From the NCBI GenBank assembly GCA_905221615.1, contig CAJNDT010005768.1, positions 186,001 to 250,000 of the forward strand: a DNA stretch of 64,000 nt, read 5' to 3'. A model generated the notes under the pieces. The model was given only the letters and a program-made list of their open reading frames with translations, ran no database searches and was not told where the DNA came from. Positions within the stretch are counted from its first letter, which is position 1, and each line of letters opens with the position of its first letter. Shown here in pieces: positions 6,745 through 29,000 of this stretch. The translations under genes and the position numbers were made by a program. The DNA is from Symbiodinium sp. CCMP2592 (taxonomy: Eukaryota > Sar > Dinophyceae > Suessiales > Symbiodiniaceae).

Positions 6745-6779
<35 letters not shown>

Positions 6780-6790
6780 AAACAACAAAG
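5700..6790 (+). repeat. Long repeat, copy B
   Basis: This is the partner of copy A, with the same landmark order and a GA tract at the corresponding end. A third, more decayed copy may span about 700-1450. No spliced-leader match is left at the end of this copy, whereas copy A and the putative third copy have one. Confidence 0.55.
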
Positions 6791-7399
6791 TGGAGAAGGG
6801 GCCCGGGTCCGTTCCCAGACCTAACCCCAGCAGAGGGAAGAAAGGAAGGAAGAGCAAGAAAACAGCGCAACTAAGGGGCCTCAAATCATCGTGTAGCCCA
6901 ACGCAACAGAATGCAACAGACCGGACATGCAAGGCGTATTCGCTTGTGTAGGCGGGGACTCCTGTAAGACAGAGAGAGAAAGAGAGAGACCCGTCAATGA
7001 CAACTCCCAAATTTCTAAAATCGGAGCGCCCTGTTGGCGCGGTCAGTGACCGGACCTTTATGCCTCACCGAAAAAGGGGGAAGGGGGGGGACTGGGCCCG
7101 GGTCCGCATGGAGAGAGAGAGAGAGAGAAAGCATTCGCTGTCGACGGTCGGACTTTTGCCCCAGCGAGGGAGACAGACAGAGAGAAGACACACGCTTTAT
7201 GCCTGCAGCATGCAGATGAGCGAAGGGAGAAGCTTTCTTCTTCTGAGCGTGACAGGCAGCTGCCCGTGCCCTTGCGAACCAGGGCAAAGTCTCCAACCAC
7301 CACAGGACGTTGGTGTGTTTCAGCTTGTGGTCTGTGAGCTGTGAATTGCTCTGGGGCACTGCAAAAATGAAACTTATTCTTCCTCGCCACGTATCGTGA

Positions 7400-8360
7400 C
7401 TTGAACGCAGGAGATGCTGGCAGAGAACTGTATCGGCAGGCAGGGCAAAGCCATGTTTGGACGGGCTCAAGTCTGCCGCGGCTGAGGTCCTCTAATACTG
7501 GCCAGCATGGCGAGCATCGTAGCATGGATCGCGAGCCTCGACCTCATCAGTCAGCGAGTTCGGCCGCTTCATCCACCAAGTCTTTTTTTTTACATGGTTT
7601 GAGGCTCGCCGAACCGGCTAGGGCTACGAGGAAGTCAGCTTTCGCCATTTCACACATGCACACAAATTTATATACCTGCACAGTATGCACCACCGACAAA
7701 GAAAGAGTCGTGCTGTTGTAGCCACTTGCCTTTCTACATCCAACCGGAGACGTCTCAAATGTCGGCGCTGCGGCCTTCTGCAGTCGGCAACAGGACGATG
7801 ATACAATCCAGTGCAGAGAAGATTCCATGCCTCCGTAGGCGAAGATTTGTGTATTCGGGATTGTACAAACACCAGGCCAACTCCGTCGGGATACTACTAT
7901 GCAGCGCCTTTGGCTGCTCCCGCAGCACCGCGAGTCGTGCTGAGCGCTTCTCAGCCCATGCACATGCACAGCCGCGGCCCCTGTTCTTGGCGCGTCTTGG
8001 GCCGGCACCACTTTCATTGTTGCACTGGCAGGCTTAGCGGGCATTGCCCCAGCCTTGGCTGCAGCACGCCCAGCATCAAGAGACAGAGCACCCCACGGCC
8101 GCCACAGATGTTGTGAAAACCAAGGCAGTGCCGCCCATCGTGAGAACCATAAGGCCTGCTGTGAGCCGGTTTCACCATCTGCGTTGTTTCCGCTTATCCG
8201 ACTCCTTTAGACTTCAGGATGCCGGCTACAAGCACGACGGCCCCAGTCACAGTCACTCACTGTGCCACGGCCTGGCGCCACTTGGACGCTCAGAAGTTGA
8301 TGTGTCCGAGTCCAACCGATGTGGAGTTGCGGCAGCGCATCACACCATCGAGGTGACGAT
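7400..8360. other. Possible upstream exons of the SPRY gene; otherwise unassigned
   Basis: No domain is recognised. On the + strand a short frame at about 8107-8175 reads like protein (VVKTKAVPPIVRTIRPAVSR) and could be an exon of the SPRY gene downstream. The remaining open frames on both strands show no motif. Confidence 0.25.
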
Positions 8361-8493
8361 GGCTCCAACGCTGTCAAAAACTTGACCGATGGCGCCTTCA
8401 CCATCACTGGCAAGCCTTCCAAAGGTTCACCTGTAAACGCACTTGGCACGATTCCGCTTACTTCTGGGCAATACTTCGAGGTGACATGCCAGG
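8361..8493 (+). CDS. Candidate exon upstream of the SPRY exon
   Basis: The frame contains KNLTDGAFTITGKPSKGSP and later SGQYFEVTCQ, a beta-rich, Gly/Thr-rich stretch with codon use like the SPRY exon. It ends at CAG|GACTGA, which gives either a stop (TGA at 8495-8497) or a GA splice donor leading to the exon at 8596. A (GT)n tract at 8513-8532 would lie in the intron. The domain is not identified. Confidence 0.35.
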
Positions 8494-8595
8494 ACTGATT
8501 GGGTTTCGTGACGTGTGTGTGTGTGTGTGTCTCTTGTGGAAACCTCTAGATTCTAGATTTGCATAAAGCGCTGCACGTAAATCAAGCGTCAAAGA

Positions 8596-9384
8596 GTGGA
8601 TGCCTCGGAGGACGGTGATGGACCGTTTATCGGAGTTGGGAAGCTGGAGAGCTTTGCACAAGGATACAAGTGTAAGGGTCTCCTGTTTGGCGGCCCGGGC
8701 AATTTGTCCAACGGCTCTGCGCTCATGAAAGGCGAGTTTGGGGAGCAGGTCTCGAAGGGATCGGTCGTTGGCATCCTCTTCGAAATGACTTCAGACCTTG
8801 TGACGCTGACCGTGTACCAAGACGGACGATGCCTGGGGCCGGCATTTACAGCGAAGCGACAGGAGAAGGGGCAGCTCTTTCCACTGGTTCAGGCGAAGAG
8901 TGATGGCGACACCTTTCGGATCGCCTTTAAGGCCCCGCCGGCAGTCCGCAGCAGAGAAGCTGGCAGCCAGGAGGGATTCGAGGGGAGTTGGGCGATCGAG
9001 AAGATGATGGTTGGTCCCGAACTCGGCGAGTACCCGCTTTCCACAAAGATGAACGAGAAGCCAGTCGTACTAAAAGTTACCACCGGCCCAAACGGCGCTG
9101 TTCGGATGGGCGCCAAAGTTGTGAACGTGCTGAATTTTTCCGCATCCTCGAGTGCCGATGCCAGCTTGGCTCCGTTTGATGCCTTGACAGTGAATCCTGG
9201 CATCTCAACGATGATGGCAGGCCCGGAGCCTATGATGGACGCCGAGTCGAAGCTTTCGACCGGACTTCAGGGTGCTCGCAAGTGGATAGTTTCTAAGGGC
9301 CAGCTGCTGATCAATGGACCAACCTTTGAGATCTCTTGCGCTCGCCACGTTGAATCGTTCGAACCTGTGGATACGGAGATCTGA
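8596..9384 (+). CDS. SPRY-domain protein, 3' exon
   Basis: This 262-codon open frame opens with GTG and has no ATG at its start, so it is best read as the last exon of a longer gene. Residues 10-115 look like a SPRY/B30.2 core: GLLFGGPGNLSNGS, then GSVVGILFEM, VTLTVYQDGRCLGPAF, GQLFPLVQ and FRIAFKAPP, matching the family pattern of a Gly-rich strand, a strand with 'NG...lG.aF' and a final 'P.v' strand. SPRY domains bind protein partners. Residues 128-255 form a second, unassigned module (FEGSW at its start, ISTMMAGPEP and GQLLINGPTFEI later), possibly a small beta-barrel. A candidate upstream exon at 8361-8493 has similar base use and ends with CAG followed by GACTGA, a possible GA donor. The stop TGA lies at 9382-9384. 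The SPRY call is fairly secure; the cellular role is unknown. Confidence 0.65.
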   Translation: MDASEDGDGPFIGVGKLESFAQGYKCKGLLFGGPGNLSNGSALMKGEFGEQVSKGSVVGILFEMTSDLVTLTVYQDGRCLGPAFTAKRQEKGQLFPLVQAKSDGDTFRIAFKAPPAVRSREAGSQEGFEGSWAIEKMMVGPELGEYPLSTKMNEKPVVLKVTTGPNGAVRMGAKVVNVLNFSASSSADASLAPFDALTVNPGISTMMAGPEPMMDAESKLSTGLQGARKWIVSKGQLLINGPTFEISCARHVESFEPVDTEI

Positions 9385-9873
9385 CGAGACGCTGCAATTC
9401 CACGGGAAAGGTCGAACACGCATCGTTTGAGAAAAAGCCGTGCCAACGTCCTTATCTAACCGGCATCTGCGCTTGTTCGGCTGTGGCTCGCCTTGGAGCA
9501 TCCTGCCTTCACGAGGCCCAGGGATTTGCCAATCTGCGGCGCGCAGCTGAGACTGCTTTCGGCATTTGCGGCGGTCGAGCAGAGCGCGGGGTCGTGCAAC
9601 TAGCAAAGCCCGCATGTAAGAAAATGCATGAAATGCGATGCACAGCCAGGCCCACAGCCCTCAGCGACATCTCACCCTTCAGCAGATTGCCGGCAGGGAG
9701 ATCAGCAATGGGAACCTGCGTCAGGCGAAACTGTTTATGGGGCCCTTAGCTGCAGACGGGTTGGTCGAAATTTCGCTGATTCCAGGCGACCTGGCTTCTG
9801 AACACTTGTCAGAAAAGCCAACAGGCCGCAGCTTCGCCTCACACTACTTTTCACGAGCTTGACGTCGACAAAG

Positions 9874-12800
9874 GCAGCCGATCCCGAAGTTTACAGCCAG
9901 CTCATCACCGCTTTCGCTTCACGTCGATTGATGAGGGAGGCAGCAGCTTGGTCCGCAGAGCGTGGCATCTGATGGACAGTTTTTCAGGCGGTGAGCTGGA
10001 TGAACGTGGAAGGAAGCTTAGCGATTGCTCGCCGTGCTGCGTTAAGTGTGGCGCAAAGGCTGCTTGACCCATCCACAAGCCCAAGGCACTGGCAATGGAC
10101 CTGGAGCTGGACGCTGCAGCTTTTGCTGCTGCCACGCGCTGAGAAAACAGGGCTACGCAAGCTGTTGTTTTCATGCTCAGGGCGGTGGAGCACACATCCG
10201 AAGAGCGATTCCTCTCTTGGTGTAATGTCCTTACATGCTCTCTCGAATGTTGGTACGGCATGCAGTGTTGTCCTTCTGAGCACGACGGCATGCCAGAAAG
10301 CCCCACGCACTACCTTCGGCAAAAAATGGCTCTAGGGGGCAATGGGTAGAACCGGGTAGAACCCACAAGCCCAATCTGCTTCCGTTTGCATAGGTCACGC
10401 AAACGGTCGAGCATGCACGCTCGTGACCAACAGTTTTTGCAAACGACGTGAGCAGAAGGGTTGATTCTACTCGTATCTCTATCTGGCAAAGGTAGATCTT
10501 CATCAGAGCAGGAAAGATGCCAGCTCCTTGGTCATGCCAACTCTTGACCTCATGCTCGTGAGTGCAACCTTCTGGCATGCAGGTCGGTCCACGGGAGGAG
10601 TTGGACGAAGAAGGCCAGCAAATATTTCGTTGGGAGAACATGGGGCAGGTGACAGTGAAGGCTGTCTAATTGTCTGAGCATGTTCTGGTTCTAGGCCGCA
10701 AAAAGTGGTGGAGAACGGTCCGTTCCCAACTCCGGCTGATCGCCATGAGTGGCTTGTCTGTCGGCATGCGACCAGCAAAGGTCTCACGGATGCGGGAGGG
10801 TGGTCTTCTGGAAGGCGCGCTCATCAGCGCCGGGGATGGAGAGTTTCGGGTGAGTTTGAGGCCAACTTGAGGTATTGGAACACAGCAAACGAAGAGAAGG
10901 GTTCACTTTGAGACCTTCGCATTGCCGAACAAAGAAAACGTGTCTTCTCCTGCTTGTCCACGTTTCTATGTCTGTCTCCCCAGAGCTTTCGCAGGCACTG
11001 TGGGCCGAGATGCGCTGCTCTATCTCCAGAAAGCTGGTAACTTATCCCGTTTTGCATATAGGCTCAACTCGATTTTGGATTGGGCTGAAGCTCTGTATTT
11101 CGCCACATCATGCACTATTTGTTTGCGATTTCAAGCTTCTGCTTCTGGCTGAATCCTGATGTTTTCAAGGCTTGCCAATCTCGGCTAGAAGTTCAGGCAA
11201 CTGTGTTCCAGGAGCCGAAGGGTTCACTCGAGTCTCTGTGCATCTGGGATGTCTGAGCCGATGAAATTCAGCTGCCTCGGTAGTAGCGTTGCTGCAGGCA
11301 AGTTAAGTCTCGTTTGAGGCTTGCGAGAGGGTTTTTGTTCAGGATGCCATCCGTGGCTTCAGAGACGTTGCATCCTCAGCCTGTGCAATCATGCTGTTGC
11401 TCGAGGAAACACTTGAAGCTCAGGATCCAGATTCCGCGGCCGAGTGCCTTCAATGTGCAAGCAAGCTGCGTCTGGAGCAGGAGGAGAGACGGAGCGACGC
11501 TGAGCCGCAGCTGCCTTACTTGGGTTGGTCTTGTGAGGCCTCTACGTTCCATTCCGTGATCATGAAATGCTGTGCGCAGCTCAGCATGCTCGGCTTCGGA
11601 AGCAGTCGCACCTGCTCCGGACTTGACCTGACACAACAGAGTTTGCTTAGGCATGCATGGCCTGCTAGACAAAGCAGCGGCACTTGTGGATACCATGGCA
11701 CCGCACTCAGCTGTCAACGTCCGAGCGGCCGTCAGAGTCTCTTGAAGAATCTGTCAGGCCGAGTGCGGATTGCAGCCTGCATCTGTCACCTGGCGATCAT
11801 GTTGTGACTGCGCAAAGGCGAACTGCTCACAAGTTTCGTGACTGAGGACATCTACCGTGCCTTGTGCCACAGTCAGGCATGGAGTTTCAACTTTTCGGGC
11901 TACCGCTGCTTGTTGTCGCGGTGGGTAGACACGGCAGGCATTGAGGCACAACGAGACCGGGGTGGAATTCTGGCTTTCCAAGCTGGAGGCCGAGACCGGC
12001 CATTCCAAGTGCATGTGGCAAGTAAGAGGTGGCGGCTCACGGGTGTGTTTTCGGTTCTCAGCAACTGTGATGTGACGGCGTACGAACAGGATGCTGAGAT
12101 GGAGCTGGCACCGTTTCGTTTGATGCAAAGGGCCCAGTGCTGCTGAGCACATAAGTGTCCGAGTTCGAGCACCGGAAGCCCTGAAGGTCGTATCATCGAG
12201 CAGCAAAAGGCCAGGCGGAGTCATCCGAGGCACGAGCAAGTTTTTTAGTTTTATGTCGCTCGTTTTTGAATGTTTGGAATGACAGTGGACACCCCTTCGC
12301 GTCCAGCTTCTTGCTTCCCCTGGTAGGCTTGGCTAGAGCGCGCGCATGACGCGGCACTACATCCTGATGTTGCCTGTTACAACGAGGCCGCTGCTGGCTT
12401 TTCTTGTCATGGCTAATGAGTTCATGGATAGCACTGTGCATGATGCCTGCCAGGTCCTGGCAGCCTTCTCGCGGCCCAAAAAGGCCTTTCCATGCTCATG
12501 CGGCAGAGGGACAGGCGTTACAGTCGCAAGTGAAAAACTGTGTGAAGCGGCTGCAGATTACACCACATTAGGGCATGTGCGGTCTTTCTCTCGTGTCAGT
12601 CGTCGTGTTCTTGTCTTTTCGTCTTTAATGCTCGAGTTGCTGACGTGGGTTGACCTCGTTGCACCATAGAATCTACTCAGAACTCTACTTGTAGCACCGT
12701 GCTCAGCCTGATCGGGAAGCAGTCTGACACGTTTTGTCGATTGTTCGGCCACGCCAGGGAGCAGGTTCTGAGTGCCGCATCGCCTAACTTTACCAAGCTG

Positions 12801-13477
12801 GTGTTTGCCCACTTGTTGTGTTTGCTCTTGCTGTTGCGCTTACTGTTCAGGGCTGTGCAACTGAATGGTCTCTTCCTGCCAAGCGGGCCGACGGAGCGTG
12901 GAGGTCTGCATATTCTGCTTGAATGATGGCACAATGTAGGTAGTAGCTTTTTCAGCCAGAATGTGTGTCTCTTCACAGGTGCTTTCAGCAAATGCGTCAC
13001 AAGGAACGGTTCTGGCCACATCAGAAGTGCTCTTTCTTGGTTGTAGGTCCAGTTCACGTCCAGTCTCCGACAGGCTGTCGAGCCAGATGCTGGATCCTAC
13101 AGGACGGCTGGTCGCCGCACTTGTAGGCTGCAGACAGTGCTTACCGGACAGGTCAGTACTGCGTGGCTTTGCCCGGTCCGGCCTTACGAGGCTCGCATGC
13201 TTGCATCATACTTCCGGCTCGTGCTCTTGATGGCCTGTGCTTTCGTGTGGTGGTGAGGCGTAGCGTGGAATGGATGCAGCAGATGCTGGACGCGAATGTG
13301 GCCGTCGATGAGACATGTTGCTCGTCCTTGCAAGGTATTCGAAGGATTTGGCAGAAGCTGCTACGCGCTGTCGTGACCACGAACGCAACCTTACAGACAC
13401 TGAGATGCTGCAAGTCAGGCTACAACTCGCTGCTTTGTGATGCTGCCATGTTTTCTGACGCAGTCACATTGCTATGA
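9874..13477 (+). CDS. PPR protein, 5' group of exon-like segments
   Basis: Separate frames carry PPR-like helices: DPEVYSQLITAFASRRL with MREAAAW (9880-9960), a helical segment LLEETLEAQDPDSAAECL (11390-11450), STFHSVIMKC (11543-11575), GLLDKAAALVDTM (11655-11695), HPDVACYNEAAAGFS (12358-12402), WMQQMLDANVAVDE (13272-13313) and YNSLLCDAAMFSDAVTLL (13420-13474). The motif 'd...yn.li.a......A......M' is that of pentatricopeptide repeats, which bind RNA in organelles. The pieces lie in order on one strand but in different frames, so they are either exons of one intron-rich gene or remnants of a decaying one. I could not place its start. The sequence from 9385 to 9870 holds no recognisable gene. 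Confidence 0.5.
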
Positions 13478-13962
13478 CATGGTATCGCACCAGGACTGTT
13501 GAAGCCACCAGGGTAGAAGAGACGTGCTTGCTATGTTTGTTGCTTGCCATCCTTGTATGGCGTAGACTTCTACCCTTCCTGCAGCCGTTTGAGACATGAA
13601 AGTTATCCCAAAGCCCGTCTCCCATTCTCCTCGGATGCCTCGTGCACAGAGACTTGCGAAAGATGACATACGCGGACTTGCGAAACCGAGAAACTGTAGA
13701 GGATCCTTTCCTGCTGGGCTCAGGCATCATGCAAGGATGGCCAGGCGGCCAGCAGCTTTCTGGCTGCTTGCGCGGCGCACAGGTGGATGGCCGAGAACAC
13801 AACAGAGCGGTGACACTTCTTTTCCTGCAGATGCGTGCAGCAATTGCGTGCAACAGGTTGCCAACATGCCGTTTGCCTTCCAGGCCGTACAGCTTGGCCG
13901 TTCGTTTTCGTCTAGGTTTGATCTGGCATTTTCCAGCTCCGTTTTGTTTAAGGAGAGGCGAA

Positions 13963-13991
13963 GAAGGGTTGCAAAGTGTTCGCAACCCTTC
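13963..13991. repeat. Perfect hairpin, 10-bp arms
   Basis: GAAGGGTTGC (13963-13972) is followed after nine bases by its exact reverse complement GCAACCCTTC (13982-13991). It lies in the presumed intron space of the PPR gene. No terminator-like T run follows. Confidence 0.6.
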
Positions 13992-15159
13992 GTGTTACAT
14001 GCTTTTGGGGATGAGACTGACAGAATAGCATGCCCAGCGTGGCCTGCTCCTAAGACTAGGAACTAGAGTCGAATCTTCAGCTTCGTCAGGCCATGTCCGC
14101 AGACGGGGCGGAGGACTTGTCCTCACTTCCATGGTTATAGCCGCAGTGGTGTCGGCGAAACTGCAGGAGCAAGAGCCTTCCTCGAAACGCCAGAGGTCAC
14201 AGGCCAGAGGATGCGGTAGAAGCTGCCTTTGCTACCGAGTAGGGAGTGTTCGAGACGTGGTCCTCGCAAGTGATGCCAGGACGGCTCGGAGGCCTTTCCT
14301 TGTCTGGGAGGCTGGCCAGGCCTGGATCGTACAGAGCAGGGCCTGCTTTTGGAGCAGTGCCCCACTTTACCTGACCGCGTCAGGTAGTTTCGGTGACGGC
14401 TGTGGTGGCTCGCAGACATCTCAGAAGCAAAGCTGCTCCAGCAGATCATGTCGGGCATGATACTTGGTGCGCGCGCGTCAAAGTCTGGTGTGCAGGTGTG
14501 GTAGCGGTTATGGCGGTGCCAGCAGCAGCGGCTCAGGCATCAGAGCTCCGAGAACCCAAGCCGCCTGTGCAGAAGAGCAGCGGCAGCCGATTTGTCAGGC
14601 GCTAGTGCTTTGGACCCCATGGCAGGCAGGCTGCAGCCGTGAGGATGTCATTCTTTTAGTTTCCACCAAGCTGTTGGTTCTTCTCTGTTGTGAGGCTGCG
14701 GAGGATGCTCTGGTCTCGGCTGGGGCTCTGGCCCGAGAATCGATGTTGTTGTGAGCACAGGGCATAATCACCCCCAAATCTGAAAGCTACTGTAGCAGAA
14801 AGACCGGCAGCTTCACGGAGATCAGCTTCCTGAATTCAGTCTTGATATTGAGACGAGTGAGGTGCCTGCGGTGGCATGAACCCAATACAACTGGACGCTT
14901 GACCGCACGAAGTCGTAAAGTTCCTAGAGCTTGCGACGAATCGCCGCCACTGCAAGGCTCAGATGCAGCAGATGGCCCAGGCCATGGCAGCCTTTGCCTC
15001 GAATGCCAAGGCATGCAAGAAAGGAAGCTCTCTCAAAGGTTCATGTTGTGATCCGTTACCGGAAGGAGGATTTTGTCCCTGAGAATCCAAATGTGGAGGA
15101 GAGGTACTACGGCAACTGGGATGCAAGAAATTCTTCATACTGTTCTATGTGGCAAGAAC

Positions 15160-15660
15160 ACCGCAAGAACGGGAGTCGAAACAAGGCATTATTCGTGATT
15201 ACAACGAGAGCCAAGTCACAGCCTCGAGCCAGTTCAGTGTGTGTCGCAATGCGCGTTGCGCAAAACTTTGGAACACTGAGGGCTTCGGTTTCATCGAATG
15301 CGAAGACGCAAAGTGGAGATACGGGATGGACGTGTTCATTCACAGGCCAGCCCGTATCAACGTTGCACTACATGCTACTCCGCAGCTTGTACTTGGGGGT
15401 GGGCTGTTCTCCGAAAAGGCGTCAGATGTTTGGCTTGGCCAAGGGGGACGAGGTTGGCTTTGCCTGTTTTTTCGCGAGGACATTCCTTCTGACGCCTGTT
15501 GCAGGTTAGTTTCGTGATTGTGCGAAACTCCCAAGGCTGGGCGGGCTGGGCTGTTTGTGGCTGGACTTACATTCAATGCTGTTGTTTCGCTTGGAGAGCG
15601 GCAAGAAGTCTATTTGCAGGTCAGCCTCAAGCTAGGCATGTCATCAAGAAGGAGGCAGGT
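15160..15660 (+). CDS. Cold-shock-domain (CSD) protein, four small exons
   Basis: Four short pieces in order rebuild a nucleic-acid-binding cold-shock fold: GIIRDYNES (about 15173-15200, RNP1-like beta strand), GFGFIECEDAKWRYGMDVF (15271-15340, RNP2-like strand), KGDEVGFACFF (15440-15475) and GQPQARHVI (15616-15645). The pattern 'G.I..yN..GFGFI.C...yG.DVF.H...GD.V.F....GQPQA' is the one seen in abundant dinoflagellate CSD proteins. Each of the last three pieces follows AG directly, and in two cases AG|G. The gene lies between two groups of PPR segments on the same strand, so it may be nested. A frame at 16149-16219 (MEGKVMSEEEARRF, then stop) could be a C-terminal exon, but the link is unproven. 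Frame changes between pieces need the introns to be real. Confidence 0.6.
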
Positions 15661-16298
15661 TGACGATTCGCTCTGCTCAGGGTCCTGTGAACTTCCTTGT
15701 ATATGATGAACAGTTTAAACGCCGCCTGACAGAGACAAACCGGACGTCATCGGTCGACGTAAGAAGGTCAGAACCTGCGGCCCTGGCAAGGAGACGGCTC
15801 GAATACTGGAAAAGCGTAAGGATCGGGAGAAACGCGAGGCTGGCTGACCGAGTGACCTGTGAATCCTTCGTGATGGCCTTTTTTCCGAAGGCCGAAAAAC
15901 TACAAGCAAAGAAGCAGGCCCACGGGACTCTTCGCTGACTGGCTTCAATAGAGACCTGCTGTCTTCCGCATCGAGAAGCTAGACAAGAGTTTGGTGATTC
16001 AGAGGAATGTCTTGTGCTCATGGGCAGGCCTCGGAAAAAGTTTGGGGCTTATACTGGAGCCACTGGATGCCGTGCATCTTGTGGCGCGAGTATGCACGAG
16101 TTTACGCTGTTCTTTGCTGTTCATCTGCCCAGGTGTTCACCCCCAGCACAATGGAGGGCAAGGTTATGTCCGAGGAGGAGGCGAGAAGATTCCAAAAGTC
16201 CTTGAAACGAGGCAGATGACAGCCGCTCGCCTGCACATTCATTGACTGAAGACTGCGTGGAACATTGTTGCGCTCGACTAAAGATATCTCCAGTGAAT

Positions 16299-16325
16299 AT
16301 GAGGCCAATGAATCTCCGGCCTCAT
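16299..16325. repeat. Short inverted repeat
   Basis: ATGAGGCC (16299-16306) and GGCCTCAT (16318-16325) are exact complements separated by eleven bases. It lies between the CSD gene and the next PPR segments. The role is unknown. Confidence 0.5.
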
Positions 16326-16633
16326 GATCGCACAAAGACGTGCGGAGTGTGAGACCACTCGAGATCTCTGAAAAAGGAGTAGAACGAGTCATGCTTCTAG
16401 CGAACCCGTCTCTCGCTGCAGCTTCCTTCGCCAGTAGCACTGGCGCCAGGTGGCCTTGCACGGGCCAGAGAGGCCACACTCGCATCGACGTGGCTCCAGA
16501 GGTGGGCTGTCCGGTCAGTTTGTTTTTCAGCATTTCGCTCGTGCGCTGCATAACTTGAGGATGGTGCTCGACAAGCTGGAAGCAGCCGAGGCACGGCCAC
16601 GTGTGTCGAGTCTCCTTCCCTTAGCCATGGCCC

Positions 16634-17040
16634 AACGAGAAGGTTGCCTTCAATGCTGTGATTTCGTCCCACTTGGGCATCGGAGACTGGAAGAAGGCGG
16701 GGGTTGTCGTTAAGCACCGAATGATTTCCGAGAATTTTCGGGAGCTGAGGCTGCACAGTGGCTGAAGCGAATGGTCATCCGCGATCTGACGCCCGTGAGG
16801 ATTCTGCGATACATGCTTTGCCGTCGCTGCAGCACATACAGACTGTATTTCCTAAAACGTCTGGATCCTACGCAGGGTCCACGCAACAGTAAAACCTGTC
16901 TCAGCACAAGTGTTTGGCGCCAGGACTCATTACAACGAGGTCATCGACCACTGTGTGCAAGAGGAAAAGTTGGACAAGGCGCTCCGTGCCTCGACAGCGG
17001 AAGTCTGCCAGCATCATGCATCTGGACATTGCAGGCCTAC
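16634..17040 (+). CDS. PPR protein, middle group of segments
   Basis: Two PPR-like helices are clear: NEKVAFNAVISSHLG with GDWKKAGVVV (16634-16710) and RTHYNEVIDHCVQEEKLDKAL (16922-16985). They have the same repeat grammar as the groups at 9.9-13.5 kb and 18.3-19.2 kb. This group ends less than 200 bp before the ATG of the TspO gene, and PPR motifs resume beyond it, so TspO sits inside the PPR territory. Confidence 0.5.
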
Positions 17041-17210
17041 TCGTGGTTGACTTTGATGAAGGACTGGGAATGTTTGGTGATTGTGCTCGAGTGCCTGCCC
17101 GCAATGATGAGTGTGTTGAAGAGCATAGCCGAGCCTTAGCACACGTCCCCCTTGTGCTCGGCTTCCAGACAACTCACATTTCATTTGCTTGTTTGCTTCT
17201 TCGTTTGGCA

Positions 17211-18119
17211 ATGTCGGCGTGCGAGAGGCACGCAAGCCAACAATGCGCGAAGCGATCGCGCCGGCCGGTTGCTCTCGCGATAAGCCTGCTGGCGTTTGGC
17301 TGCTTGGGGCCATCCTGGATGCTTTCCCCTGTGCTCCCACGGCCGGGCAGAGCCACGCATCTTACGATAGGTAGCTCGAACTTACCACCACTCAAGACGC
17401 CGAAGACGTCACGTGTGTCACTGCAAGCTTCTGAAAAGGAGCTTGACACCGATGCTGTGGGAAAGTACGCGCTGTCCATTGCCATCCAGCTGCTAGGAAT
17501 TACAACTTTCTTCACGGCGATCGACTCTGCTGTTAAAGCCTCGGGTGTGGAGCTGCCTGACTGGGCTGTTTTTGCCTTGTTCTTTGGCATGAGCTTGCGC
17601 TCGCGCATCTTTTCGCCCCTGGACAACTCCCGCCCCGATATTCAGAAGGCAACGCAGGGACAGGCCACAGGAGGCTTCAACGACCGAACGATGCCAAGTT
17701 GGACACCTCCCGGTTTCTTTTTCCCGATCATGTGGATACTTATCGTGGCACCCCTTCGGGCGGCATCCTCGATGATGATTTGGCAGCAAGTTGGCCACCT
17801 TTGTGACGCAACTATCTTGGTCCTCATGCTTCACTTATGTGTGGGGGACACTTGGAACACCGTCAACAATGTGGAGCGAAGACTGGGAGCTGCAGTTCCT
17901 GGGGTCCTCTGTGTTTGGGCCTCGGCGCTTGCTGCGAGCTACGCATACTTTCAGGTTGATCCCTTTGCTGGGCAGCTACTGTTGCCAACCTGCCTGTGGC
18001 TTACAGTGGCAGCTGCTTTGGTAACGGACACCTGGCGGGTGAACAACACTTCCGGAGCAGAGCCACTCTTTCCGTATAGGGGCACAACCCAAACAAAGTT
18101 CTGGTTTTCCACAGACTGA
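17211..18119 (+). CDS. TspO/MBR-family membrane protein with plastid-type presequence
   Basis: TspO/MBR proteins (translocator protein family) bind tetrapyrroles and related ligands in outer membranes of mitochondria or plastids. The 302-codon frame is intact and uninterrupted. I chose the ATG at 17211 because it starts a plausible targeting region: basic residues, then hydrophobic VALAISLLAFGCLG (signal-peptide-like), then a Ser/Thr/Pro-rich basic stretch, as expected for proteins entering a secondary plastid. The frame is open further upstream, but that part overlaps PPR-like sequence in another frame. The core has about six hydrophobic segments, the TspO hallmark PSWTPPGFFFPIMWIL, and GDTWNTVNNVERRLG, a signature seen in algal members. 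It is intron-free, unlike its neighbours, which fits reinsertion from mRNA. I found no spliced-leader relic just upstream. Confidence 0.8.
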   Translation: MSACERHASQQCAKRSRRPVALAISLLAFGCLGPSWMLSPVLPRPGRATHLTIGSSNLPPLKTPKTSRVSLQASEKELDTDAVGKYALSIAIQLLGITTFFTAIDSAVKASGVELPDWAVFALFFGMSLRSRIFSPLDNSRPDIQKATQGQATGGFNDRTMPSWTPPGFFFPIMWILIVAPLRAASSMMIWQQVGHLCDATILVLMLHLCVGDTWNTVNNVERRLGAAVPGVLCVWASALAASYAYFQVDPFAGQLLLPTCLWLTVAAALVTDTWRVNNTSGAEPLFPYRGTTQTKFWFSTD

Positions 18120-18284
18120 AGCTCCAGGCCCGAGAGAGCAAAAGAAGCTTGCTTACTGCTTGTTTGCTCTGGCTTAGCCCGGGCATGACGTCTGTCTTTC
18201 GGCTGTGCCTGAAGCTCTGGCTTTGCTCTGACTCTACGGGCAAAAATTCGACTCTTGTTGCGCACTCCTGCAGGCTACTCCTCC

Positions 18285-19235
18285 GTCGTTGCCGGATCTG
18301 GTTTCGTACCATCACCTCATCAGTGGTGCTGCGGCGCTGGGAAGAGAGAAGCAAGCGGCCTGCTGCTTACTTTCTTTCTTCGGATTTTGCCTCCGCACGG
18401 CTTACCGGCTTCACCTTGAGGAAGACTGGTTCGGGGAGATGCGAAGTGCACGATTGACGCCCGATCCAGTCTTTTTCACTGACGTGATCCACGGCTTCGC
18501 AAGCCGGGCATCCTAGTTAATTGTTGTATGGATTCTGGCATGTTGGAGCCAAAGTGCATGCAGGAAGCACGGAGTATGAAGTCGCCATTACATGGCTGCG
18601 ACGCATGGCCCTGCGCTGAGGCTACCTATTCATGTTGCATTTTTCTCACGGGCATCTGCAGTCCGCTGATAAGGCGAAAGAAGCTGTGCATCCGACCGTC
18701 GCGTGCTACAATGCACTCATCTCTGCATGTGCCAGGCCGTGCCGGCAACCAAGTCTTTCAGAGGGGTTTATGTGTGTTGGCCCAACAGGCAGGGTGACTT
18801 ACAACGTGCGGAGTGCCGCACTTACCTCCGTTCTTGAAGCATTCGTTACTTCGTCTTGGGTGGTTCCTGATTGAGGCACTGGTTTGAGCAGCTGCCCATC
18901 CAACGGCTGCAGCCGGGAACATATGTCGCACATTGCTGGACCTAGATCATACACGCAGTAGCGGCTCAGTAGCGGCCTCCCGTGCGTAGAGCATACTCAG
19001 AGACAAGACCACTGTAACATGTAGTCCGCACGGTTGAAGCAAGTCTGTGCAAGTGGGACGAAGCAGCTGGCTTACTACCCTTGGGCATGGAGATACGGAC
19101 CTGCCGACAGTTTTACAGCTAGCTCGGGGCTGTTTGCAGTCCAAGGCCCGACGAGTTCTCTTACAAGGCATTGATTCGCGGCTGCTGCTTGCTGGATGAG
19201 ACTCAGAAGTCGCTTGGAGGAATCAGGGGAGTTAT
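18285..19235 (+). CDS. PPR protein, 3' group of segments
   Basis: The motifs are PDLVSYHHLISGAAALG (18290-18340), ARLTPDPVFFTDVIHGFAS (18450-18506), HPTVACYNALISACA (18690-18735) and GPDEFSYKALIRGCCLL (19143-19195). All follow the PPR helix pattern ('PD...Y..LI.......'). They lie in order on the + strand, in different frames, with stops between them. The gene or its remnant therefore continues past TspO. From 19.24 to 20.0 kb I see only weak helical pieces (around 19340-19420) and no stop codon I would trust as the end. Confidence 0.5.
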
Positions 19236-20032
19236 AGATGTTGGCAAGTGCTAAATCTGAGTTCCAATGCCACGCACTTCAGCAGAGTCGCAAGTTACGT
19301 TAAGAAGTGTTCCATCACTGTCGGGAACTTCCGCCCTGCCTCTCAGGGCAAAGCAGTGGTTGCAGAAGCTTCAGTCCACCAGATGCAGGCCCGGAAATGG
19401 ACGCTTTCGGTCGCCTCGCAATCCATGCTTTGCCTTGCTTTCTTCTTGACTGCCTAGGCCTGATATGCCATTCTACTTGGGGCCACTGCCTGAGACACTC
19501 ACTGCAATCTCTGCTCCGGTCATTCGGCGGATGCAGGATGATAGATGCAAGAGGACACAGCTCCCTTCCGGAGGCAGGGCCAGTCTTCTTGCCAGCTCCT
19601 GCAGAGGCTGATCTGTTTGTATTGTGCTGTCATGTGCTGTCGCTGACGTCCTTTGCAAATGGACACGGCAAACCTCAGCCCCGCCCCACACACTGTAGGC
19701 CTGTTTCGCTCTCCAGCTCAGGCTCAAGACGATGGAAACCACCCTGCCAAAGAAGCAGGCGTGTTGAAAATGCGGCCCTTCCCGCATCGACGAGATCGCC
19801 GTGACACTGGAAAAGAAGATGCAATTCACACAGTTCACATAGCCATCTAATGACTCGAGGCTTCCAAGGTTACAGGGCAAGATGGAATAGATCGATGTAA
19901 ATTGGCAGAACCATAGACCGAGAATGGATGTAAAGAGGCTGCCCGAGGGGCTCAATTTCTTATATGTTTTAAGTTGCCAAGCCATGTCAGTTCCGTGTGA
20001 ACACAGCAAGCTCCAATTTCTGGTAGTCTGTT

Positions 20033-20155
20033 CGGTCCTTGCCTGGCTGCGGGAAGGGGAGCGACCGCTGCGAAACACGCTCCTGCGTTTGGGTAGTTTA
20101 CTCGGTCCTTGCCTGGTTGTGGGAAGGGGGAGCGACCGCGGCGATGCGAAATGGA
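20033..20155 (+). repeat. Tandem duplication, about 71-bp unit
   Basis: CGGTCCTTGCCTGG followed by a G-rich stretch and 'gagcgaccgc' occurs from 20033 and again from 20104. The two copies differ at a few positions, mostly C to T. It lies at the left edge of the AT-rich zone. Confidence 0.75.
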
Positions 20156-20260
20156 AGTTGCAATTCTTCCCCAAAAAATGTTGGGGGTTGGGTTCTTGTC
20201 TGGCTTTTCCTTCTCGCGGGGGAGCGTTCACAAGAAAACGTTGCCGTGGATCGGAATACT

Positions 20261-21040
20261 TGTAGCGAAGAGGACGCGTCCACGCGGAGGACACGACCGT
20301 GGTGGTCGTGGATGGGGACAATTGGGGAGCTGGGTGCCAAGCGTCCGCGGGAGGACGCGCCGGTGGTGCGGAGGTCTGGGTGGGTGCAAGCTCCGGGCGA
20401 TCTTGAATGGGGACGGTGGGGAGCTCTGGGTGCTGAGCGTTCGCGGGAGGACGGGTGGTGCATCGGAAGGACGCGGTAGTGGATGGTGACGGTGGTAGCT
20501 CTGGGTCTTGAACGTTTACGGGAAGATACGGTTGAAGACGGGGATAGGTGGGGACGTGGACGGGGAGGGAAGAAGAATTCTAAATAGCGAATATTCAATA
20601 AGAATGGATTATTTATTCTGGCTAAATATTAATTAGAAGAAAGATATAGGAAATCTCTACCGATAGGGATCGGGAGGGGAGCTCTGGGCACCGAATATAT
20701 AATGGAGGAGACGGGGAAAGATAAATGGTTGGGGAGGTCTGGGCTCTGAGAAAATATTATTAGGGACGGGTGGGCAAAATGAATATTGAGAGAATTCTAT
20801 ATTTCGAGCTTACGGAGTAAGATATTTTTTCGAATAGGGACGGGAAAGGTATGATTATGGATAGGAACGGTTGAGAATTCTGGCCATCATATTTATAAGA
20901 GGTTGATGAAGAAGAACTCTGGATTTCGAATATTTATGGAAAGCTACGATTGAAGATAAAGATGGATATGAGTTCTAAATACTGAATATTCGTAGAGGAT
21001 GCGGCACATGGACGTAGGTCGTAGAGAAGGTATCGATTAG
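20261..21040 (+). repeat. Tandem repeat that decays from GC-rich to AT-rich
   Basis: About eleven irregular units of 40-105 bp, commonly near 75 bp, can be aligned on a shared start. Left units read GAGCTCTGGGTGCTGAGCGT and TAGCTCTGGGTCTTGAACGT; later ones read GAATTCTAAATAGCGAATAT, GAATTCTGGCCATCATAT, GAACTCTGGATTTCGAATAT and GAGTTCTAAATACTGAATAT. Many differences are G to A or C to T, and they generally increase to the right. Two GC-rich unit starts (near 20678 and 20730) interrupt the gradient. Confidence 0.65.
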
Positions 21041-22730
21041 AAATTTGAAATCCTTTATTTGGATCTTTTTCTTCATACCTAAAGCACGATTTGATTTCGA
21101 GGTCTCGCCTTGAATAAATAATTCTATTTATTTATTATATCTCTATTTGGCTATCATTATTTTGATGAATATCGAAACTATTATTTATTTTAAATTTTTT
21201 TATTCTGGAAACTATATTCGATATAGATCGAAATAGATATGATATTCATATTATCTCGCGATATTCTCTTTATAGATTAAGAATTTAGGGATATTTCAAA
21301 TTCGTTTTCTCAGAAAATTTTCGTATTATCATCGTCTCGCTATTTTTATTTTTCATAAATTTCTGATCATATCGTGATACTCTTTAGGATATTTCTTCAT
21401 GACCAAGAAAAATCTGGCGACTTCACCTAGCCGGTTAAGATTTTCTTTTCGGCGTGTTTCAAATCTTCTTCATAAAATTCTATTTCGTCGTATTTCTCAC
21501 GAAATCGCTTTCGCGGAATCTCTCGTCGTCGCCCCAATTTTTTATTTTCGAAATCATTTAGATTAATCCAAATGGTATCTAATATCATACGATATTGACT
21601 ACGATATATCTTTATTCGTCACGACCAGAATATTGAATAAGAACTCGTTAGAAATAAAAATAAAACCATTTTTATGATTTCGTATCTAGGATCCTAAACC
21701 TTATTTAAAATCCTCAATTACTAATCTCTTAAAAACCCCCCTAGCATATCCTACGTATCTAATATTTCGGAAGATTTAAATTTTCTTCATTAAATCAGAA
21801 ATAATTCCAGAATTTATCGCTACCGATTAATAAAAAAACTAAGGAAAAGAGACTAATAGACAAAAACCAAGAATGCCCCAATAATTTAAAAATAATATAA
21901 TTTAAAAAATCAAGAATTCCAATTCTTCGATCATTATCTCCCTGCCCGAAGAGACCCGAAAAATTCAAATCCTATACTATTCAATTCGGGCCCAAATACC
22001 TATAACCTCGCAGAGAACTCAAGATTTCTTATATAAATCGACGCAAAATATTCCACAAGACGTAAAAAATCTAAACTAATATAATTTAGAATATCGAATT
22101 CGTCTCCCAAATAATTTTGCAGAGCTTCGAATATTATCTTGCCAGCAAGGATGAAACATATAGATATTAAATATCTCGGAATCTTGCATCGTATTCTTTA
22201 TTTCGAATCCCAATAAAATCTTTTATTTTATTTATCATCGAATTCAATTCGAGAAATCAAAATCGAATTCAAAATTAAATCAACTTCCCACCGTCCCGCC
22301 ACCCCGCTTTCCCGCAAATTGCGGGAAAGCGGGCACGCCGCCCCCCGTATCGCAAGCGGACACGATATGAAATATTCGCCCCACCCCTAAAACTCGATTT
22401 TAAAAAGAGAACCCTTCAACTACGAATTCGGGAAAGATATTGGTGATTTTCGAGAAATCAGAATTTCGTTTATCCATAAGAAAATATACAAATACTATCG
22501 TCTTATAAGATCGGAATACTACGATAATATCATCCTATAACAGCCCTTCGAAATAGATTCTTTACACATATTCATATATATATATATACACATATCATAG
22601 CCTAAGTTCAGGAAGATTCATCGATTTATTTCTCCTATTCGGACTAGTTGATATTTTGGGATTCAATAATCGCTCATACCATACGAAGGGTTTATTCAAC
22701 TCTAGTTGGTAAAATATAATCATAGAGAGC
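20570..22730. other. AT-rich, gene-free block
   Basis: Composition changes abruptly here to clearly A/T-dominated sequence, against the GC-leaning rest of the window. No open frame of 60 codons occurs between about 20.6 and 23.2 kb on either strand, which is unique in this window. It contains a (TA)n tract at 22574-22588 and a GC-rich palindrome at 22303-22333. It lies where the left (+) and right (-) gene blocks meet. I see no organellar or rRNA gene in it. Confidence 0.8.
22303..22333. repeat. Perfect GC-rich palindrome in the AT-rich block
   Basis: CCCGCTTTCCCGCAA (22303-22317) and TTGCGGGAAAGCGGG (22319-22333) are exact complements around a single A. Short GC-rich flanks continue on both sides (about 22288-22360). 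It could form a strong hairpin or cruciform. Nothing nearby identifies it as part of a gene. Confidence 0.85.
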
Positions 22731-22737
22731 GGTCGAC

Positions 22738-22911
22738 TGTGGAGCCTGGGTTTGGTTTCAGTGCTTTTTATCGGGTTTCAACGTTAATGGCTCCAAAGCA
22801 GGAGTTTGTGTTTTGTGTCGCGTAAAGCACATACCACAAAGCAAGCATCACAAGTGTTTTTCGGAACAGCTTATTCGAGTTGTGCAAAATCGCTCTCCAA
22901 CAGGCTCCACA
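22738..22911. repeat. Inverted repeat, 11-bp arms 152 bp apart
   Basis: TGTGGAGCCTG (22738-22748) and CAGGCTCCACA (22901-22911) are exact complements. They bound a segment of mixed composition, possibly a small foldback element. No target-site duplication was identified. Confidence 0.45.
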
Positions 22912-24900
22912 CCAGTGTGTAGGTCGAGCCTCTTAATCTGGGTTCTTGTGTAGCAGATCTTACAAGCAGATAACGCTATAAATATCGATGAATTCAAGAC
23001 TCTCTAAAGAACGTCTTAAGGTAGGCTACATAAGCTCGACAGTTTCTCTATGCAGCTCTGATAATCGGGCCTTTAAGATTCTGGACTGTCTACCCAAAGC
23101 AAGCTGAGCCAACACCGCTGTTGGTAACAGTGTTTGAAACACCAATATAGAGATTCAGCCGAATTAGCTGTCGAATTGCATTGGCATAGGGTTAATAGCA
23201 ATGTGGATGCACATAAGGGCCCTTTGTTTTGGCGCGGTGAAGCAAAGTAAAGATATGAGCGGGTTCAGCCTATGTACCTGTATAAAGGACTACCAAAGAC
23301 AAACTGTAATCGATGAAGATCTGGCTGCTGTCCTAGACTGGAATCCTACTTGTGTTGATGCTTATCCGATTCTGGCTTCTTCCGATACCCTTGTTCATAA
23401 GGTACCCCGTACCCCTTCGAAATAGCCAGTATTTGGATATAAATCATTTGGATTAGTGAAAAATGCTGCACTGGATACCGTGTCGGTTCCAAGCCATAAC
23501 GGATCGTCCTCCTATAGTTCCTCAAACCGGTTTGGTCCAGGCCGTAGCACGCTCTCCATCCCTACACATAGCCTTACAAGAGATTTTGTATAGTTGAAAT
23601 ACTAAACACGAACATCTCGTGGTTTCACTCGATGAGCCTGGACGTATCAGCCGCACCCCAGGATCGACCCTTCTGTAATCATAATACATAATAATCTTCA
23701 TGCCGCTCACAGTTTGGTTCTCTATGGTTATATGACTATATATAAAATCACATTTCTAATTTTGACCCAGTTATGTCTGTCTGGGTTCGACTCCGAGGCT
23801 TTTTTGGAATCAGTCATTCTTCCAACTTGCGCGTAACTATGTGGATGTAGACCTGGCGCTTCCAGGATGTTCAGCGTGTCCGGCATGCTGCAGGCAACGG
23901 ACAAACTTCAACCTCCTGCGTGACACCACGTTGCCTCTTCTAGTCCACATGGATCGAAATCCTTCTCTTCGTCCAGTTGCTGAACCTGCATCGACACAGG
24001 GCGCGATGAGCAAGCAACCCCATCGTCCAGCTGAGTCGCATCAACGTCTGCTTGCCTCGAAGAGTCCACTGTCATGGACGATGGCAAAGAAATTCCACGA
24101 AAATGGCCGGTTGATGAAGACCTGTCCCATGTTTAGCTTAGCTTTCCATTCAGGACACCACAGTAAACGTTCTGCTGGATGCTGAGATCATAGCTGAATA
24201 GATCAGGGTCTCGGGGCTGCAGAAGCGGTCCCAGGTCCAAAGCAATAGGTCATGAGTCTCCTGTCTGCACCGGGCCTACCACAGCAAAGTCTGCTCTCTC
24301 GAGCTCTCTGCATGTCCGTGACAAACCTAGAGTGTCATCGTGTTCAGCGCATCTTTCGCAACTGCAGCCGCACGCTATCAACCAATGCCAGCCAGTGGGA
24401 CAGGCCGCGAGTCTGATGACACGTTCAATGCACGGCCAGGAATAGGACGACTAGAACTAGGAGATGTGCTCTGCTTCCATGTCGGCAGTTGGTTTTCACT
24501 CATCATCTGACTTCATAGTTCCACTGACTACTTCTCTAGTTTATGTACAGCGCGACTTCGCAATACTTTGCAGGCAACTTTGTGCCTTCACTCACTCCAC
24601 CAGCTCGCACCTTGGTGAGCCATCTACATCGTCTTGCGGTCGATCCTTTAAGAACTCTGAGATGCTGGTTGCAGCACTTACCTCTCAGGATGCAGCTCGC
24701 TGTCATCACCAGCCACAACTGTCAAAGATGTCTTATTAACTTCTGAAGCCATGACGGTAATCGAAGTACGGCCTGCAAGGCGCAAGCGCTTCTCAGGCGG
24801 TTCTGCCTGCAAGAGGAGTAGAGGAGACGCACCAAAGGGGATGAGAAGTCCCTTGAATCATCGCAATCTTGCGACAAGAAACATCTCTAGCATGAATTTG
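22912..24900. other. No recognisable gene
   Basis: Composition returns gradually to the window norm. Short open frames exist on both strands (for example 24464-24746 +) but none shows a domain, and none continues a neighbouring gene that I can identify. Confidence 0.4.
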
Positions 24901-24959
24901 CAAGCAGAGGAGAACTCCGCGGTGGCAGCTCGGGCAAGGCAACTGGGAGCTTGGCTGAT

Positions 24960-25385
24960 CCACCCTCGAAGTGCGCGTTCACGTGAGCGTCTGCCTCGTC
25001 CTGGCAAGCTGAAACGACTTCGCTCAGTGAGTGTGTCTTGCAACCTACAGTCAGAAACGTGGTTTGGGGACTCTGGTGCTAAGTCCCTGCCACGACGAAG
25101 GAGGCTGGCCTTGTTCAGGAGCTTGGAGCACACGGGGCACTCCACCTGGTTTCTGCTGTCCGGCTCCTGGCGTGGCATCGCCGCCATCGCACACAGCAAA
25201 GCCTTGCTCAAAGATCTCAGGCTGATGGATATCTTTCCTGCACCTGCACCTGCTCGGAGCCTTCCAGGTCCACGACCTTTCTTGCGCTAGCTCTTCCTCC
25301 ACTCTCCACTCTTGCGATTCTGTGGATCCGGCAATGTGCGAGTCTGCAAAGGCTGCAGTGGGGGCTTCTGCCGCCTGATTCACAG
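24960..25385 (-). CDS. Zinc-finger-like segments (UBZ-type?), possibly the REV1 C-terminus
   Basis: On the - strand, VECPVCSKLL (about 25145-25116) directly follows AG|G. After a presumed short intron comes ACQDEADAHVNAHFEGG (about 25012-24962). Together they resemble a ubiquitin-binding UBZ4 finger ('CP.C...L ... hvn.H'), although the expected last Cys is not evident. A further open piece, EAPTAAFADSHIAGSTESQE, lies upstream at 25375-25300. The segments follow the last REV1 motif (26.0 kb) on the same strand, so they could be its C-terminal ubiquitin-binding module. They could equally belong to a separate small gene. Confidence 0.35.
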
Positions 25386-26019: not shown

Positions 26020-29000
26020 TGACCAAGTTTGACGGCAAGCCCAACTCCACGCAGCCTAACCTTCCGCAGGGCCAAGCTACTTGCTGGGGGGCTTGGTGCA
26101 GATGACCGCAGCTTCACGAACACATCTCGTCCGTTCAATGTCAAGAATCGAAGCTGCTTGAGCTCAGGGAAGCCAAGGCGCCGGATCTGGAGACAAGGCG
26201 TCAAAGAGCTGTTGTGCAGTCCTCTCGGTGCTTTGCGAGGATCGCGACAGTTGACAGCCCTAAAGCACCAAAGCCCTTTGGCAGCCTGAGGAGCAGGGCA
26301 GGCTCCTGGGCTCAAAGGATTGTGCAAACGTGCACCTCTCTTCGCCCTGTTTCCTTGCTGTCCCAGCTACGTTGCTTGCATCAGGAAGGGGCGCAGAGCG
26401 ACTCACATCGTCGCACTGGCCATGGCCACCTCTCTTGATCGGCTCCACCTGCTCCGAAAACAGCTGCTTAAACCTAAATGCCGCCGCAACTGCCATTGCC
26501 AGAGTGAGGAAGGCACCCAACCGGGCACGGCAAGCTTGAGCTTCAAGGTCAGATGAATGGCACCTGGGTCGGACAGTGGGACTTTGCTCCACAGCCCGAG
26601 ACTGTCAACTGAGCTTCAAACAAGGTTTCAGTCCGGTGTGAGTGGGTCTGGGACGCGGACGCAAATCGCAGGCAAGGAGACGCTCGGAAAGCTGTTGCGA
26701 GACCTACCAGTAGCATCGGTGCATGGAGATCCACACGCGGATAGGACGAAGAAGTATAGGCTAGGCACGTGCTAAGCCAAAGAGACATTAGCGAGAGCAA
26801 GAGACGCCATCCGTGTTAATCAAGGGCCTCTGACAGGATCTTGACGGCAGCAGCCCGATCTTGGCATCGAATTCCCCAGTTCCTTGTCATTTCGTCTGTA
26901 GCTTCTCACAGTTGCTGTTAGTGGCATGCAAAGGGCCAGCATGCTCACAGTGCGGCCGAGGCGCATCTCTGCGCTGACGGACCTAAGAAAGCAGCTCTAG
27001 GAGCACCGTTCTGCTGCCATTCGCAAGATCCCGACTTCCTTTGTGCCGGTGCAGAGCTGAGAGCGTTCGCCTGGAAGAGGCTTCCGCAGGAGGAACTCCC
27101 GTGAGCGGACTCCGAGAACAGCCCGAGCCTGGTCAAGGCCCTGCGCGTTGAGCCAAAGTGTCTCGCCCTTGGCGCCAAACCTGCTACTAAGGCTTCCGGA
27201 AAGACGAGTCACCAGTCCTCTGACCCAAACGCCATCCTTGGCATAAGAGCAAGATTCAGGAGAGTTGCTACTGTGCAGCCAAGTGTCCACTCACGCAGTC
27301 GTCCCTGCCTGCGTGTGGCCGAATTCCATTCAAAGCCAGTCGCTTCGGGAATGCTTAAGACTGCCGTGCAAGCCAACTTTCGCAGCACGGCTAAATGCAA
27401 TCACTTTTTTTGGGATGAGGGCAGGGTCTCGAGTGTTGTGGGTGCTCTTGGATAGGGCTTCGACATAAAAGATTTTTTTGCAAGCGGGCTGGCCTGGCTG
27501 GGCTGGGCTGCCGTGGGCTGGGCTGTGGGCTGTGACCGTTCCGAGCCGTTCCGATCCGAAGCGTTCCGAACCGTCCCGAGCCGTTCCTTTCCGAACCGTT
27601 CTGAATCGTTCCCAAGCGTTCCGAACCCTTCCGAGCCGTTCCGACCCGTCCCGAACCGTTGCAGACTGTCCCTTGGTCAGGCCAAAAGCAACGGTTCGGG
27701 ACGGCTCGGAGCAGTTCGGAACGGATCGGGTCTGGAACGGTTCGGGACGGTTCGGAACGGTTCGGCACGGGTCGGGACGGGACGGCTCGGAACGGTTCGG
27801 AACCACTCGGAACGGTTCGGAACGGCTCGGGTCAGAACGTCTCGGAACCGCTCGCACAGCTCGGGAGGGCTTGGAGCAGCCTCACAGCAACTCCACCTGA
27901 CAGTTGAACCATGTTGAACCCCTAGCCCTGAGAATGCTTAAGACTGGATGTGCATCGCATATTCGATTCCAACCCATTAGTGTTATTAGTGGCCGCGGGA
28001 GGCTAGCCTCCTTAAAGTTGAGTTACGCATTCCCAGGGCCTCCCCAACTTTAACTTGTTCCAGCACTAAGGCGGTGGCTCCAAAGACTGGATGTCCCTGC
28101 ACGTTTCCAACCCACGCTCCTGCCACGCAACGATCGCTGCAAGGTCGCCCTGCATCCGTCACAGTACTAGCTAGAGCCAACACAGTGTCTAGAGGACTGG
28201 CTGAGTCGTTGCCTTTGACTGCACGTACCAGTGCTGCTCGTTGGACCATTAGGACTTACACTATCCCACATCCAACTTCGCCTGCAGCTTTGCCGACATG
28301 GCATGCCCAACCTGTGGCATCAAAACAAATGCCCGCAATTGGAAAGCGATGGATGACAGGGGCAACCACTGTCCAGTCTCTCCACACAGCTTGGCAGGCA
28401 CAGCAGTGCGATGCAGCACCGCAGCCATTTTTCTTCCCGCGATGTGGCTGCAAGCCGAGGGAAGCTATTCCTGCCCGGGCTGTCTAGCGCCGGGCAGAAC
28501 CGCGACCATCGTGACACCTCCACGATGTCACCGACGCCCCTTGTGCATGCTGTGACTGGTACTGCGTTGACCAACCGTCCGCTCTTCAGCATGCCAGCGC
28601 TCACCGTTAGAAACTTGCTCGGCTTCCATCCTGCTCGAGGTGCCGCTCACAGCTTCTGTTTGATTGTTCTGGACCAAGTCGATCCACTGGAATTACTTGA
28701 CGAAAGCTGGCACATACAGGTCGTGCGCCTGTCGCGTCAAGCCGCCAAAAGATAGTGTCAAAACCGGAAATAGCTGCACTGGGGCCTCCGCCGCAGTCAC
28801 ATAGGAGGAGTTCGCCTTTCAATGCTTGATGTGGCACCGTACGGCTTCGAAACTGGCTTTCAACATCTGGCCGTTCGGTCTGAGCTGGACTGCCCTCTTC
28901 TCAGCTTCTGGCTTCTGCTCGTAGCCCGGATATCCTAGCAGAGACATCACGAAAATCAAGCACAACGTTCACAACACAAACCTCAAAGTCTTGTGAATGC

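Follow-up and report, generated by a model that had tools for sequence, protein, structure and literature searches.

What does the DNA look like where two opposed, unidirectional gene arrays of a dinoflagellate run into each other, and how did it come to look that way? We addressed this question in Symbiodinium sp. CCMP2592, in a window of 64,000 nucleotides (nt), the whole stretch analysed here (contig CAJNDT010005768.1; C4962:186001-250000), where such arrays meet at an AT-rich block; searches covered the 1,098,105,373 bases of the 5383 contigs of this genome. The locus is probably, on somewhat better than even terms, one case of a recurrent element of convergent array ends, whose AT core was produced by localised loss of cytosines. 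Its anatomy, an erosion gradient and a bias in the 5' context of the changed cytosines are observed here, and a similar anatomy at five other loci. Followed inward from either gene array, the element would begin with a head, continue as a tandem array whose sense strand is G-rich, and end in an AT core common to both sides. That GC dips where convergent arrays end has been reported before (Nand 2021, PMC8110479); new here is the anatomy, the parts of which are the following.

1-19240, plus strand: left gene array, from Pfam matches and a strand k-mer model (e.g. an open reading frame (ORF) with a META domain at 8581-9381 and a TspO/MBR ORF at 16893-18116).
20168-20290, plus strand: head of element A (nhmmer E 2.5e-33), a head present in 10/10 fetched A loci.
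20304-20480, plus strand: near-intact ~58-nt units of element A, with G:C->A:T transitions at 5/89 aligned GC sites.
20480-21066, plus strand: decayed units of element A, with transitions at 50/158 aligned GC sites; four of the plus-strand unit matches score 49-65, whereas 60 resampled sequences reach 40.5 at most.
21067-21113, plus strand: decayed tail of element A (nhmmer E 1.3e-3; score 63.0, the best of the 60 resampled sequences again being 40.5; transitions at 7/23 GC sites).
21113-22284, no strand: AT core, 28.6% GC, without a match in the genome at E<=1.
22284-22355, minus strand: remnant of a G-rich unit of element B (C-rich on the plus strand), with a unit motif common to locus L039.
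22303-22333, no strand: perfect palindrome with 15-nt arms and a 1-nt spacer, formed by the B-unit motif and its inverse.
22356-22430, minus strand: head of element B, matching locus L039 (C2580:834365-834439) at 80% over 75 nt (E 5e-14) and found at further B loci.
24960-64000, minus strand: right gene array, from Pfam matches and the strand k-mer model (e.g. GMC oxidoreductase ORFs within 45190-47065 and a beta-type carbonic anhydrase ORF at 63195-63998).

That both arrays point at the AT block, as a sequence-only reading of the window had proposed, is supported by the strand distribution of Pfam matches and by the cross-trained k-mer model. Matches at E<=0.01 occur in 6/30 sense ORFs (10 plus-strand ORFs on the left, 20 minus-strand ORFs on the right), five of the six having a model above its curated cut-off, and in 0/10 antisense ORFs scanned, three of them near 60-61 kb; because the sense ORFs were chosen partly by coding score, this is not a matched control. 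The strand model, for which one array served as training set and 2-kb windows of the opposite one as test set, was correct in 10/10 left and 18/20 right windows with 3-mers, and in 9/10 and 15/20 with 4-mers. The GC dip postulated at the switch is borne out as well: GC is 26-45% across 20601-22800 in 200-bp windows, against a mean of 0.553 (s.d. 0.039, minimum 0.46) outside 19-25 kb, and 0.331 in the core segment 20561-22724 (2164 bp), against 0.552 (s.d. 0.014, minimum 0.519) in equal-length windows outside. This is consistent with the published Symbiodinium microadriaticum average, in which convergent sites, unlike divergent ones, show a GC dip, with GC going from 51 to 46% at domain boundaries and dipping by ~10% at convergent sites (Nand 2021, PMC8110479). 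The block had been drawn too wide, at 19240-24960; the native AT-rich part is ~20480-22724 plus 23676-23800, and with these narrower limits an AT core does lie between GC-rich repeats, element A on the left (20168-21113) and a G-rich remnant of element B on the right (22284-22430).

The left edge is a copy, oriented toward the centre, of a dispersed GC-rich tandem-repeat element consisting of a ~120-nt head, ~58-nt tandem units and a tail, the last being present in 7/10 fetched A loci; its array is 769 nt long in the window vs 187-487 nt in the seven tail-bearing copies. Counting only stretches that align to the unit, G:C->A:T transitions from outside to inside affect 2/45, 3/44, 13/45, 7/30, 16/44, 14/39 and 7/23 GC sites, i.e. 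5/89 outer vs 57/181 inner sites (Fisher p 4.6e-7), and the rate jumps from 0.07 to 0.29 between adjacent units; counts vary somewhat between our analyses, in which alignment cut-offs and stretches are not identical. By contrast, the ten dispersed A copies show transitions at 185/1992 GC sites, with transversions (224) commoner, so that transitions and transversions stand at 57:16 in the window vs 185:224 elsewhere (p 2e-7), and they show no proximal-distal gradient (69/998 vs 33/416, p 0.5; one copy, L033, contributed no sites). The left part of the core would accordingly be an eroded G-rich repeat and not foreign DNA. The decay gradient holds on the left side of the block; on the right, a young transposon at 22725-23675 accounts for most of the GC gradient, and no eroded A unit right of the core scored above the resampled maximum.

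Within the eroded part, cytosines following A or G are changed ~3-fold more often than those following T (33/70 vs 5/34, p 0.0012). With such a bias, AC/GT should become rare and TC/GA be retained, and in both respects the composition of the window core agrees (GT/AC 0.43, GA/TC 1.48); its TG/CA is 0.58 and its CG 1.68. A core signature of CG>1.3, GT/AC<0.5 and GA/TC>1.4, with cut-offs fixed after the cores had been seen, is present in 6/6 cores and in 0/19 other AT-rich windows of 500 bp, taken from 30 further loci. Among all 500-bp windows of the 64 kb and loci L009-L053, 7/1252 pass it, three in the window itself, one in L039 and three in L048. A sense-strand excess of C->T changes was also considered; since it is weak (32/73 vs 43/158, p 0.016) and AT skew is inconsistent from core to core, we do not claim strand-biased change.

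The right edge, 22284-22430, is a minus-strand remnant of the second G-rich repeat, element B. The palindrome, unique in the 64 kb among those with perfect arms of >=10 and a spacer of <=5, had been placed at the centre of the block; it sits at the right edge of the core and is the B-unit motif. Elements A and B share GGGTTCTYGTTT, which is found nine times in the 325 kb of the window plus L009-L053, six times in A heads and three times in B heads; in both heads of the window itself it is modified. Since the heads were the criterion by which the loci had been selected, the informative point is solely that A and B have the motif in common.

The anatomy recurs at loci related through element B. 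At L039 (C2580), an AT core reaching the contig end is followed by an array of eroded units and then by ordinary DNA, and a G-rich array grading into AT-rich DNA is also found at C954 (L045), C4991 (L046), C2580 at 396.9 kb (L048) and C1879 (L053), further B loci having been found by searches with L039 and L045. Moreover, AT-rich stretches outside the B head occur in L039, L046, L047 and L048. In the B arrays of the five loci, transitions are commoner in the inner than in the outer half (178/953 vs 307/2211, p 7e-4), a small gradient with inner and outer limits and a unit consensus chosen by us, and cytosines after purines are changed more than those after pyrimidines in both halves. Left out of the core counts are C995, where the contig ends within the array, C943 and C4112; simple-repeat-like short matches (query 2043-2113) and a head match with 3 mismatches (C1:259840) were not taken as B loci. 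Of the anatomy that other convergent sites might share, the five loci show the G-rich array and the AT core; among four flanks tested, inward gene direction is supported at two, weak at one and undecided at one. The strand k-mer score is positive in 4/4 flanks when turned core-right, barely so at C2580b, where an ORF with Methyltransf_32 (E 1.3e-8) is directed at the core, and at C4991 the six best-scoring ORFs are directed at the core.

Contig ends are close to B loci in excess of expectation (C954, C4991, C995, C943, C2580), and AT cores may break assemblies; for 5/9 loci the end is no more than 2.5 kb away (p 1e-6, for a distance picked post hoc and loci obtained partly with contig-end queries). 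At L049 (C1213), degenerate telomere-like CCCTAAA stretches (1-1300) flank a short B fragment.

As to mechanism, a local C:G->T:A process that favours purine-preceded cytosines over T-preceded ones and strengthens toward the centre could have acted where transcription from the two sides comes to an end, on DNA left single-stranded there, or on DNA that carries modifications and is repaired poorly. The site would then be a chromatin-domain boundary at which transcription from both sides terminates. A broader proposal, that domain boundaries are written by a boundary-specific C->T process eroding inserted G-rich arrays into AT cores of one dinucleotide make-up, is possible, and we rate it well short of even; one source of such changes might be that exposed or modified DNA is deaminated at the stopping points of opposed transcription, with 5-hydroxymethyluracil (5-hmU) tolerated. 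Early work cited by Marinov 2024 (PMC11071213) placed 5-hmU at TA and TC, whereas that paper's own data give no preference for any context; a 5-hmU-type modification could have left its footprint in the sparing of TC cytosines.

Several observations weigh against this interpretation. The 5' context bias leaves the CG enrichment unexplained (CpG cytosines are changed at 27/66), likewise the depletion of TG/CA, and GC/GC, expected to fall under it, spans 0.55-1.29 over the six cores; the erosion process is therefore only partly described. To the late choice of signature cut-offs is added that no 500-bp window passes in L045, L046 or L053, where the cores, in the stretches analysed, span only 200-601 bp. 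The core proper, 21113-22284, has no homologue within the contigs of this genome at E<=1. Element A is dispersed, and strand scores around its copies are mixed. Besides the smallness of the B gradient and the author-chosen limits behind it, L046 has no clean gradient, and the short B fragment of L049 lacks a core and counts as a miss. Among the flanks, one of the six ORFs at C4991 is integrase-like, below the cut-off, an ORF of like coding score without a Pfam match is directed away from the core at C2580b, C2580a points only weakly toward its core, and C954 is undecided and repeat-rich. Finally, as the other loci were found via B homology, they may share descent and not mark boundaries generally.

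Of the alternatives, we give a clear minority chance to a selected AT-rich terminator or torsion sink, in which easily melted or 5-hmU-bearing DNA halts polymerases, comparable to the role proposed for base J at kinetoplastid array ends. Indeed, 5-hmU is enriched and accessibility reduced at boundaries of dinoflagellate topologically associating domains (dinoTADs) in Breviolum minutum (Marinov 2024, PMC11071213), and opposed G-rich arrays would suit a two-sided terminator; the two cores compared are, however, alike in composition and have almost no common sequence beyond the B head and an AT microsatellite. The kinetoplastid array ends, as described in PMC11071213, resemble this locus in having convergent polycistronic arrays and a special terminator zone, with the difference that dinoflagellates have 5-hmU instead of base J. 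A passive scar, i.e. inter-array DNA under neither selection nor a GC-raising process, in which inserted GC-rich repeats drift to AT without any boundary function, appears rather unlikely. It would suit the absence of coding capacity (no stop-to-stop frame >65 aa in 20560-22284), the increase of GC content with gene density in S. microadriaticum (PMC8110479), and the fact that context bias accounts for only part of the core make-up. Yet the ten dispersed A copies, equally non-coding, lack the transition excess, the core make-up is missing from the 19 other AT-rich windows, and the transition rate rises abruptly between neighbouring units.

A replication terminus, origin or centromere of similar look is improbable. 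The cumulative GC skew has its maximum near 21 kb, the sign expected of a terminus, but transcription-linked skew would have the same sign; and while an AT core flanked by opposed repeats resembles some centromeres, the two core-bearing loci ~437 kb apart on C2580 are too many for one. We consider it very improbable that AT-rich DNA of foreign origin, whether mobile, virus-like or organellar, was inserted here: the lack of a homologue for 21113-22284 in this genome at E<=1 would fit such an insertion, whereas eroded A units run on through 20480-21113 into the AT zone, no frame exceeds 65 aa, and a like composition is found within decaying repeats at other loci. In fungal repeat-induced point mutation (RIP), C->T changes in repeats yield AT-rich DNA, and the changes seen here do fall within a repeated, tandem element; a RIP-like process is nevertheless just as hard to credit, as the same units have escaped it in the ten other A copies, so that repeated copies are not generally mutated. 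Furthermore, the sequence context differs from that of RIP, only the switch-site copy among those examined is strongly changed, and there is no CpA preference (CA 5/11, CG 27/66, CT 10/25, all small counts). Localised cytosine loss at a recurrent array-end element remains the explanation we prefer.

The other features of the block are these.

19971-20143, plus strand: dispersed repeat adjoining element A on its outside, with a 38-nt direct repeat in two copies and matches on C820 and C5366.
22440-22724, no strand: AT-rich shoulder beyond the B head, 29.8% GC, with an AT microsatellite at 22568-22596.
22725-23675, plus strand: young dispersed transposon copy, 951 bp, 45.5% GC, with TAATCATA at 22717-22724 and 23676-23683.
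23676-23800, no strand: remaining native AT-rich shoulder, 35.5% GC.

At least 40 further rows match the transposon, with 40 of 112 candidates scored, and 36 of these rows show 95-98% identity; near-identical copies and a target-site duplication, the latter seen in this copy only, identify it as a dispersed transposable element. Eighteen copies compared at their ends match it to ~23656 and then diverge, and the window copy looks rearranged near its 3' end. Targeting of AT cores by the transposon was considered and rejected: at the 20 additional copies fetched (L009-L028), of which two reach just 83-86% identity, no 500-bp window has the core make-up, although some have AT-rich flanks (L012, L014, L016, L028). 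Element A as a boundary marker everywhere was likewise rejected, most of the ten fetched copies lying in ordinary-GC DNA where strand scores are mixed; AT-richer DNA is present near the A copy in L030, L033 and L034, yet no window with the core make-up. Rfam gave nothing at gathering thresholds. Elsewhere in the 64 kb, a GA dinucleotide repeat of 28 copies lies at 5297-5352, and two adjacent arrays of 10-base units in inverse orientation (CCGTTCCGAA and AACGGTTCGG) at 27535-27830 could fold into a large hairpin.

Convergent unidirectional arrays are common to the window, S. microadriaticum (PMC8110479) and B. minutum (Marinov 2021, PMC8110477), the local GC dip being reported by Nand; the head, G-rich array, mutation gradient and dinucleotide signature are seen here and not described in the available parts of those two papers. 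In its available part, a review (PMC11453091) mentions reduced GC at boundaries without sequence anatomy, and we found no published description of such a boundary anatomy in the open-licence literature. Whether dinoTAD boundaries rest on specific boundary elements or purely on torsion was left open by Marinov 2021 (PMC8110477). Marinov 2024 (PMC11071213), which reports 5-hmU at boundaries, asks about boundary-marking repeats and gives Maverick/Polinton, near ~11% of boundaries, as the sole enriched family. Unlike these, elements A and B are short, and no long reading frames are seen here; a large gene-bearing element of the Maverick type was not found, in that 20560-22284 holds no frame >65 aa, the wider flanks not having been searched for Maverick genes. 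If boundaries can be recognised by their anatomy and composition, the choice between boundary elements and torsion would become testable from sequence alone, and such a signature would aid the calling of domains in fragmented assemblies; the AT-core anatomy may also account for several contigs ending at such sites. Moreover, an eroded copy with known intact relatives would offer a direct read-out of local mutation in histone-poor chromatin.

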